DNA from: Aeromicrobium marinum DSM 15272
Lineage (GTDB): Bacteria; Actinomycetota; Actinomycetes; Propionibacteriales; Nocardioidaceae
Assembly (NCBI RefSeq): GCF_000160775.2
Contig: NZ_CM001024.1
Span: 1 to 64,000 of the forward strand
Length of the DNA stretch: 64,000 nucleotides
Reading direction: 5' to 3'
The notes under the pieces were generated by a model. The model saw only the letters and a program-made list of their open reading frames with translations, made no database searches and had not been told where the DNA came from. Both the position numbers and the translations under genes were made by a program. Below, piece by piece: positions 840 to 3,490 of this stretch (positions are counted from its first letter, which is position 1; each line of letters starts with the position of its first letter).

Positions 840-2101
840 GCGAGCTGTTCGGCAACGAGCCGTTCTGGGTGGTCGCCCTCAAGGCGGTCCTGATCTTCGT
901 CGTGCTGGTGCTCTACACGTTGTTCAACATCTGGTTCGAGCGGCGGGTCGTCGCCCGCATGCAGCACCGCGTCGGCCCCAACGTGCACGGTCCGTTCGGG
1001 CTGCTGCAGAGTCTCGCCGACGGCGTCAAGCTGGCGCTCAAGGAGGACCTGGTCGTCACGGCGGCGCACAAGACGGTCTACATCCTGGCGCCGATCCTCG
1101 CGGTCGTGCCCGCCTTCCTGGCGTGGGCCGTCATCCCGTTCGGGCCCGAGGTCACCATCCCGTTCACCGACACGGTCACCCCGTTGCAGCTCACCGACCT
1201 GCCGGTGGCGGTGCTGTACATCCTGGCCGTCACCTCGATCGGCGTGTACGGCATCGTGCTGGCGGGCTGGTCGTCCGGCTCCACCTACGCGCTGCTGGGC
1301 GGACTGCGGTCGAGCGCCCAGGTCATCTCCTACGAGGTGGCGATGGGCCTCAGCTTCGTGACGGTGTTCCTGTACGCCGGCACCATGTCGACGTCGGAGA
1401 TCGTGGCCGCCCAGACCGACCTCTGGTACTTCATCCCCTTGTTCCCCTCGTTCGTCATCTACGTGATCTCGATGGTGGGCGAGACCAACCGCGCACCGTT
1501 CGACCTGCCCGAGGCGGAGGGCGAGCTGGTCGGCGGGTTCCACACCGAGTACTCGTCGCTGAAGTTCGCCCTGTTCTTCCTCGCGGAGTACATCAACATG
1601 GTCACCGTCTCCGCCCTGGCGACCACGCTGTTCCTCGGCGGGTGGCGGGCGCCGTTCGGCATCGCCCAGGTGTGGGAGGGCGCGAATGAGGGCTTCTGGC
1701 CGGTGCTGTGGTTCCTCGGCAAGACGCTGGGCTTCATCTTCTTCTTCATCTGGCTGCGGGGCACGCTCCCGCGGATGCGGTACGACCAGTTCATGGCGCT
1801 GGGCTGGCGCTGGCTGATCCCGATCTCCCTGGTCTGGATCGTCGCGGTCGTGTTCATCCGCAAGCTGCAGAACGAGGACATGCTCGACCAGCAGACGCTG
1901 TTCTGGATCGCCGGCATCGCCTCGCTCGTCATCATCGCGACCCTGTTCCTGCCCGAGCGCAAGCGGCCCGAGCCCGAGCCGGTCGACACCGGCGAGCCCG
2001 ACGCGTTCGCCGGCGGCTACCCCGTGCCGCCCATGCCGGCGCAACGGGACGCCGCCACCCCCTCCACCTCCCCTGAACCGAGAGGAGGAGCCGAACGATG
2101 A
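836..2101 (+). CDS. nuoH: NADH-quinone oxidoreductase subunit H
   Basis: A 421-aa polytopic membrane subunit that sits where the peripheral arm meets the membrane arm and helps form the quinone-binding chamber. The start ATG at 836 lies inside the nuoG stop (ATGA). Family hallmarks are visible: [15 protein letters not shown] near residue 31, the acidic loop [27 protein letters not shown], and about eight hydrophobic helices. The tail of about 40 residues after the last helix (roughly 380-421) is proline- and acid-rich, a common actinobacterial extension. A longer in-frame upstream reading exists but crosses nuoG and is not the gene. Confidence 0.96.
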
Positions 2102-2661
2102 GCTCCGCCAGTGAGTCCAAGGAGTCGATGTGGGACCCGGTCGCCGGTTTCGGCGTCACGTTCCGCACGATGTTCAAGAAGGTCGTCACCGAGCAGTACC
2201 CGTTCGAGAAGCTGCCGACCGCCCCGCGGTTCCACGGCCGGCACCAGCTGAACCGCTGGCCCGACGGGCTGGAGAAGTGCATCGGCTGCGAGCTGTGCGC
2301 GTGGGCCTGCCCGGCCGACGCCATCTACGTCGAGGGGGCGTCCAACGACGACTCCGACGGCGGTGACGGTCGGTACAGCCCCGGTGAGCGGTACGGCCGG
2401 GTCTACCAGATCAACTACCTGCGCTGCATCCTGTGCGGGCTGTGCATCGAGGCCTGCCCCACCCGCGCCCTCACGATGACCAATGAGTACGAGCTGGCCG
2501 ACGACAACCGGGCCGACCTCATCTACACCAAGTCCGACCTGCTGGCGCCGCTGCTGCCCGGCATGGTGCAGCCCCCGCACGAGCAGATGATCAGCGACGA
2601 CCACCAGGACTACTACCGCGGCAAGCTCTTGCCGATCACGCCGGTGGACGGTGACGCATGA
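2098..2661 (+). CDS. nuoI: NADH-quinone oxidoreductase subunit I (two 4Fe-4S clusters)
   Basis: A 187-aa ferredoxin-like subunit carrying clusters N6a and N6b, which pass electrons to N2 near the quinone site. Two complete 4Fe-4S motifs are visible: [12 protein letters not shown] (Cys 61, 64, 67, 71) and [12 protein letters not shown] (Cys 110, 113, 116, 120). The ATG at 2098 overlaps the nuoH stop and follows a GAGGAG ribosome site. The last codons and stop (from 2644) belong to a 22-bp segment that is repeated exactly at 2709-2730, see the insertion element between nuoI and nuoJ. Confidence 0.97.
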
Positions 2662-2730
2662 CGACGCGGTCGGTGGTCGAGGTGCGAGCCTGCGAGCCTC
2701 GAGACCACGTGGACGGTGACGCATGACGAC
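2644..2730. repeat. Palindromic insertion between nuoI and nuoJ with 22-bp direct repeats
   Basis: Two exact 22-bp copies (2644-2665 and 2709-2730) flank a 43-bp segment (2666-2708). The segment holds an imperfect palindrome: left arm GTGGTCGAGG, right arm CCTCGAGACCAC, and in between a tandem TGCGAGCC TGCGAGCC. The flanking copies contain the end of nuoI and the start of nuoJ respectively. This looks like a REP-type or miniature palindromic element whose insertion duplicated its target. Removing one repeat and the insert would restore a direct ATGA overlap of nuoI and nuoJ. The direct repeats and palindrome are seen directly; the insertion history is inferred. Confidence 0.8.
2658..2726 (+). 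other. 22-codon linking ORF between nuoI and nuoJ
   Basis: An ATG at 2658 overlaps the nuoI stop as ATGA. The frame runs 22 codons through the palindromic insert and ends in TGA at 2724-2726, which overlaps the nuoJ ATG at 2723, again as ATGA. A ribosome could pass from nuoI to nuoJ by two stop/start couplings. The peptide itself (begins [16 protein letters not shown]) is probably only a by-product of the insertion. There is no evidence that it functions as a protein. Confidence 0.45.
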
Positions 2731-3490
2731 CTTCTGGATCCTCGCGCCGATCATGGTGCTGGCCGCTCTCGGCCTGGTGTTCTCCCGCAAGGCCGTCCAC
2801 GCGGCCCTGTGGCTCGCCGTCGTGATGATCAGCCTCGCGGTCCTCTACGCCGTGCAGGGCGCCCCGTTCCTGTTCGCGGTGCAGATTATCGTGTACACCG
2901 GCGCGATCATGATGCTGTTCCTCTTCGTGGTGATGCTCGTCGGTGTCGAGTCCGACCTGTCGCTCACCGAGACCATCAAGGGTCAGCGCGCCGGGGCGAT
3001 CGTCGTCGGCCTGCTGTTCGGGGTGCTGCTGGTCATCGGCGTCGGGCAGGTGTCGGTCGGTCCGGTCACCGGGCTCGACGAGGCCAACGCCAACGGCAAC
3101 GTCTACGGGCTCGCGGCGCTGATGTTCGGCCCGTTCGTGCTGGCCTTCCAGTTCACGGCGGCCCTGCTGGTCACCGCGGTGCTCGGGGCCATGGTCCTGG
3201 CGCACCGGGAGCGACTGACCCCCCGCCTCACCCAGGCCGACCTCGCCGCCCGGCGCATGCGCGACTACGCCGAGACCGGCCGGCACCCGGGCAACGCCCC
3301 CACCCCGGGCGTGTTCGCCCGCCACAACGCGGTCGACTCCCCGGCGCTGCTGCCCGACGGGTCCCCGGTCCCGGACTCGGTCTCGCCGAGCCTCACCGCG
3401 CGCGGTCAGGTGCTGCCCGTCGACGCGAGCGACGTCGAGGAGACCACCCGCCGACTCGGGCCCGAGACCGACGGCGAGGACGACAAGTGA
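2723..3490 (+). CDS. nuoJ: NADH-quinone oxidoreductase subunit J
   Basis: A 255-aa membrane-arm subunit with five predicted helices in the first ~165 residues, including [24 protein letters not shown], which contains the conserved TM3 that forms a pi-bulge in complex I. The remaining ~90 residues form a hydrophilic tail rich in Pro, Arg and Asp, longer than in enterobacterial NuoJ but usual in actinobacteria. The start ATG lies in the second copy of the 22-bp repeat. The stop overlaps the nuoK GTG by 4 bp. Confidence 0.95.

Follow-up and report, generated by a model that had tools for sequence, protein, structure and literature searches.

The window analysed here comprises 64,000 nucleotides of the genome of Aeromicrobium marinum DSM 15272, which has 3.08 Mb in a single contig. 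It carries a nuo operon whose genes (nuoH starts at 836) follow each other closely, with a 4-nt overlap at each of the H-I, J-K, L-M and M-N junctions and a 7-nt gap between nuoK and nuoL. The junction between nuoI and nuoJ is occupied by the features listed in Table 1.

Table 1. Features at the nuoI-nuoJ junction of A. marinum (positions in the window).
Feature	Position	Strand	Description	Source
nuoI	2098..2661	+	Intact; stop overlaps the start of the mini-ORF	ORF list, junction reading
Direct repeat of 22 bp, left copy	2644..2665	+	Final 18 nt of nuoI plus the next 4 nt	
Linking mini-ORF, 22 codons	2658..2726	+	ATGA overlap with the nuoI stop and the nuoJ start	
Segment of 43 bp between the repeat copies	2666..2708	+	Dispersed matches in the same genome	
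REP-like imperfect palindrome	2672..2708	+	One of 69 exact-pattern copies in the genome; covariation of the arms	
Direct repeat of 22 bp, right copy	2709..2730	+	14-nt leader of nuoJ and its first 8 nt	
nuoJ	2723..3490	+	Intact; overlaps the mini-ORF stop with its start codon	ORF list, junction reading

The initial annotation had described an exact repeat on both sides of a 43-bp segment, and this was borne out since the two copies are identical at 22/22 positions with a spacing of 65 nt, which far exceeds chance. Its reading of two whole genes joined by a 22-codon frame was also correct, as this frame shares 4 nt (ATGA) with nuoI and 4 nt with nuoJ. Both genes are whole and nuoJ keeps its 14-nt leader because the duplicated stretch carries the final 18 nt of nuoI, ATGA included, as well as the initial 8 nt of nuoJ. 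The former start of nuoJ now opens the mini-ORF, which ends over the new start of nuoJ, since the 65 bp leave a remainder of 2 modulo 3 and are free of in-frame stops.

The annotation also held that without one repeat copy and the segment the two genes would overlap as ATGA, like most other junctions of the operon, and most of the relatives have such a site. From 48 genomes searched, two gave no match and one (G033) only weak matches, and the junction could be read in 44 of the remaining 45 loci, the other (L052) being without nuoJ. An empty 4-nt ATGA or GTGA overlap was found in 39 of these 44 same-genus relatives, thus the 65-bp unit is not universal, and a different insert was found in the other five. 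By eye, the insert of the window is absent from all 44, and it is a derived insertion. In a FastTree tree of the NuoI to NuoL proteins the closest branch to the window genome, its sister group, unites G017 and G042, which have no insert at this junction, and G040 and G030, which have other inserts. As the insert-bearing genomes are scattered on this tree, inserts between nuoI and nuoJ were likely gained several times within the genus. One of them, of 134 nt, appears by eye to be common to G040 and G031 (loci L046 and L048).

When 161 bp of the junction were compared with the genome of origin, dispersed matches to the 43 bp were obtained. The exact arm pattern occurs 69 times in this genome (22 and 47 on the two strands) and not once with the reversed control, hence the further copies that the annotation had proposed to look for do exist and the segment belongs to a dispersed repeat. 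The pattern is present in six of the 49 genomes of the genus, the window genome included. Among 66 distinct copies one position of the arms shows a paired change (T-A in 58, C-G in 5, T-G in 2 and C-A in 1). The stability of the hairpin is ordinary given its composition (z = -0.53, with an equally good fold in 58 of 200 shuffles) and was dropped as evidence, so the palindromic status rests on the many copies and on the paired change rather than on fold energy. According to a crude call of open frames, 30 of the 68 copies read in context lie between genes arranged tail to tail, and 7/68 were flagged inside an open frame. An array of eight copies in both orientations is placed between convergent frames at 271471-271929 (L002, L056), and at 812729-812860 (L067) there are four 24-bp pieces of the palindrome core with a regular spacing of 36 bp. 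We use the term REP-like because the REP-associated (RAYT, Y1) transposase is absent from the genome: the Y1 profile PF01797 gave no match in it, while the control search was positive in 5 of 14 named genomes.

Scanning the 66 distinct copies for mini-ORFs running from DTGA to DTGA between open frames gave 17 rows under loose conditions, and only the copy of the window lies between two frames that look firmly coding, with a third-position GC of at least 0.95 in both neighbours (0.95 and 0.97 in the window). The remaining rows have a neighbour with low third-position GC or, for the copies at 139949 and 2574364, a neighbour which by eye is not a true gene frame. The copy at 139949 was considered as a second linked case, having a 55-codon frame that begins at the end of a ligase-like frame. 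It was not counted, as by eye the frame starting at its far end does not look like the true gene.

Linking frames are not restricted to the window. All five other inserts between nuoI and nuoJ in the genus contain an ORF overlapping each gene by 4 nt (6/6 with the window). The survey was extended to the nuoH-nuoN region of 80 named actinobacterial, 39 genus, 41 family and 5 shorter genus loci (165, or 163 after two duplicates were dropped); the 41 non-genus family loci were drawn from genomes with an interrupted or weak junction match, so they are enriched for inserts though not for linkage. Inserts were counted when they had at least 15 nt and were not scored as N-terminal extensions. Forty-one junctions were set aside as in-frame extensions (H-I 1, I-J 26, L-M 4, M-N 10), and apparent gaps between nuoI and nuoJ in distant genera, tried as inserts, were mostly extensions of this kind in nuoJ. 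An insert was taken as linked if it held an ORF whose start lay no more than 14 nt ahead of the upstream stop or 3 nt past it, and whose end lay 1-14 nt into the downstream start.

At the normally coupled junctions 34 inserts were obtained: 4 in 156 H-I junctions read, 9 in 161 I-J, 10 in 160 J-K, 10 in 141 L-M and 1 in 133 M-N. By script, 31 of the 34 hold a linking ORF, with a 4-nt overlap at both ends in 24 of these 31. Two others were missed by the script and are linked by eye, namely the I-J insert of L213, made of four tandem 71-nt units in which each ORF overlaps the next by ATGA, and the L-M insert of L211, which ends in TGA directly before a GTG start. The L-M insert of L117, where the upstream stop is TAG, is the only one of the 34 that is unlinked. 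The script also misscored a unit of repeat family (a), described below, at the H-I junction of L159 (G010) as a 4-nt gap and at that of L191 (G042) as an overlap, which leaves these outside the 34, and returned an impossible I-J value for L078. The inserts were seen mostly in Nocardioidaceae. The uncoupled nuoK-nuoL junction, in contrast, has 84 gaps of at least 15 nt among 147 junctions, none of the 44 genus junctions read being among them, and not one is linked (0/84). An in-frame start lies near the upstream stop in 67 of the 84; applying the same filter leaves 17, with 0/17 linked. Coupling thus looks like a filter on insertions, given 31/34 linked on one side and 0/84 on the other, and selection for a coupling-preserving form is supported by these sequences well beyond the case of the window.

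Other palindrome-like repeats, some with arms similar by eye to those of the window copy, occur at coupled nuo junctions in L188 (I-J, G030), L186 (J-K, G014), L184 (I-J, G046) and L211 (L-M, G059).

We consider it likely that a REP-like palindrome entered the nuoI-nuoJ junction at its ATGA overlap, accompanied by a 22-bp target duplication, that the resulting mini-ORF keeps the two genes coupled, and that selection retains almost only inserts of this kind. Starting from the observed empty site, repeat family, duplication and reading frame, and from the recurrence of the form at coupled junctions, the course of events can be proposed as follows. A copy of the palindrome resident in the genome would enter the four-base overlap, insertion and duplication perhaps being a single event or the duplication having come first, and this would leave a complete end of nuoI at the left and the leader and start of nuoJ at the right. 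As the arrangement suggests, ribosomes finishing nuoI would then reinitiate on the mini-ORF and, at its end, once more on nuoJ, and finishing and reinitiating at both overlaps would maintain coupling and an unbroken train of ribosomes. Selection would let inserts persist at coupled junctions almost only as linking ORFs. Translation of the mini-ORF, coupling through it and the selection step are what we infer from sequence. The proposal of the initial annotation that a small element can enter a coupled operon in a form that preserves coupling is supported by the empty site, by the dispersed repeat and by the recurrence of the form at other junctions.

The linking frame could be a matter of chance, a GC-rich insert of the right length being open by itself and nuoJ being translated from its own leader. 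When the window insert is shuffled a linking frame arises with a probability of 0.18, so that an open linking frame alone is not beyond chance, and the duplication does hand nuoJ its old 14-nt leader. Nevertheless we regard this explanation as unlikely, in view of the 6/6 linked inserts between nuoI and nuoJ in the genus and of the difference between coupled junctions and nuoK-nuoL. Depending on the event, an insert that is shuffled and given a random frame links with a probability of 0.09-0.35, from which 5.6 links would be expected among 24 events, and the product of the chances is about 10^-15.7, a value in which the copies of the two repeat families described below are not independent trials because they are pre-adapted units. 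These 24 events were picked by eye from the 31 linked inserts, seven being dropped as homologous or very short; a 4-nt overlap was required, which a few of them lack, and L117, L211 and L213 were left out (24/25 if L117 counts as a failure). The product is 1.2e-4 for the five genus inserts outside the two families, or about 7e-4 once the window case, from which the test arose, is removed. It can also be imagined that the palindrome is kept for a role in the mRNA, protecting or ending the transcript between the two genes, the open frame being incidental. The palindrome is able to form a hairpin, and the accessible text of PMC2817692 reports that REPs facilitate Rho-dependent termination. This role seems unlikely as well, because the fold energy is ordinary, Rfam gives no match in 2400-3000 at E up to 1, none of the 44 relatives read carries the insert and the open linking frame recurs in unrelated inserts.

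The least credible of the alternatives, to which we give very little weight, makes the repeat a regular target-site duplication of a mobile palindrome, produced by a transposase with a long staggered cut, and the linking ORF its by-product. The repeat is indeed exact and directly abuts the 43 bp on both sides. However, the duplications of 20-25 bp that the annotation expected at the edges of other copies were not found: in the 67 copies with sufficient flank, edge repeats reach 22 nt in the window and at most 9 nt in the other 66. In this test tandem arrays, which share flanks, bring shuffled flank pairs to 22 nt at the 99.9th percentile, and the contrast is therefore with the other real copies. 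A long duplication as a trait of the family was thus rejected (1/67), and the duplication belongs to the event in the window alone. Moreover, in the accessible text of PMC2817692 the IS200/IS605 elements, relatives of the REP transposases, are described as making no larger target duplications. Entry of the palindrome with a one-off duplication, followed by selection for coupling, is the reading we retain.

The closest known elements are the MIRUs of mycobacteria, which target DTGA sites and underlie VNTR typing. The overlap of the window ORF by 4 nt with both neighbouring genes is MIRU-like. As summarised in the accessible text of PMC12548453, which cites Supply et al. 1997 as the source, a MIRU is a short repeat at a coupled junction with an ORF coupled to the downstream gene at -4 nt, likely sparing expression; the entry of a short repeat into a coupled junction as a linking ORF is therefore already known from that system. 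In contrast to MIRUs, the window insert has a REP-like palindrome in its interior, most other copies of which are outside coupled junctions, and the linking form needed the one-off duplication. Dispersal of a unit at many coupled junctions is not seen for this palindrome, of which only the window copy, among 66 distinct ones, lies in a DTGA-to-DTGA mini-ORF between two frames that look firmly coding, whereas the two repeat families recur at several. With REP/BIME elements, as presented in the accessible text of PMC2817692, the palindrome shares its short imperfect form, dozens of copies mostly outside genes and arrays in alternating orientation, but the genome has no Y1 transposase gene and the window copy forms part of an ORF within a coupled junction. 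The ATGA overlap between co-directed genes is that of termination-reinitiation coupling (accessible text of PMC6728339), although here the mini-ORF adds a second overlap between nuoI and nuoJ. A literature search covering few subscription journals found nothing on an ordinary palindromic repeat reaching the linking-ORF form through a target duplication, nor on the consistency of the linking rule over unrelated inserts in one operon; likewise it found no MIRU-like families in Nocardioidaceae and no paper with both MIRU and Nocardioides.

Taken more broadly, the evidence inclines us slightly towards the view that unbroken ATGA coupling is nearly mandatory in the nuo operon of Nocardioidaceae. 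The operon would filter unrelated inserts (REP-like palindromes, two MIRU-like families and unclassified sequences), keeping almost all as linking mini-ORFs. MIRU-like elements would then be one solution that evolved under a general constraint, and a one-off target duplication could draft an ordinary palindromic repeat into the same form. Natural inserts at coupled junctions can be regarded as unplanned experiments on translational coupling. That nearly all survivors are linked, and none at the uncoupled junction of this operon, suggests strong selection on coupling and offers sites for direct tests.

The two repeat families, (a) and (b), recur at different junctions in loci of the genus Aeromicrobium and of Nocardioides and, like MIRUs, recur at many junctions and form tandem arrays. 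They resemble mycobacterial MIRUs as far as the published description allows the comparison, and may point to a MIRU-like way of life outside mycobacteria. Family (a) has matches, some of them short, in 34 of the 49 genomes of the genus, and its peptide is of the type MSERQRxN...YRxF. The motif itself demands a 5' TGA, so only the 3' end and the length count as evidence; the length is 80 or 83 nt in 33 of the 39 motif copies read, and for 35 of 43 mini-ORFs the open frames on either side each reach 40 codons or more. In the genome of A. marinum seven matches have E < 1e-4, and two of these form a tandem pair (3046489-3046652). The window insert was considered as a worn member of this family and rejected by eye, its interior being the palindrome. 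The flanks of 34 copies agree at 7.74/14 positions against 6.62 (sd 0.21), mostly through two bases before the ATGA and with a contribution of tandem copies, which is only suggestive of a short target duplication. Family (b) was found in Nocardioides records such as L100 and L103, with 8, 12, 8 and 0 matches in four genomes.

Units of family (a) run from ATGA to ATGA at gene overlaps in the genus, sometimes in tandem (L235-L264, L293-L299; in A. marinum at 153829-153912, 294072-294158 and the tandem pair, among others). Those of family (b) have CCCC/GGGG arms and stand at coupled junctions in L100, L103, L210, L215, L279 and L281, and in L213 (G146), where the four tandem units at 886-1169 give four mini-ORFs that join nuoI to nuoJ in an ATGA-linked chain. 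The nuoL-nuoM junctions of L128 and L148, both from Saccharopolyspora, hold linking ORFs of 48 and 47 codons that agree at their ends and differ in between.
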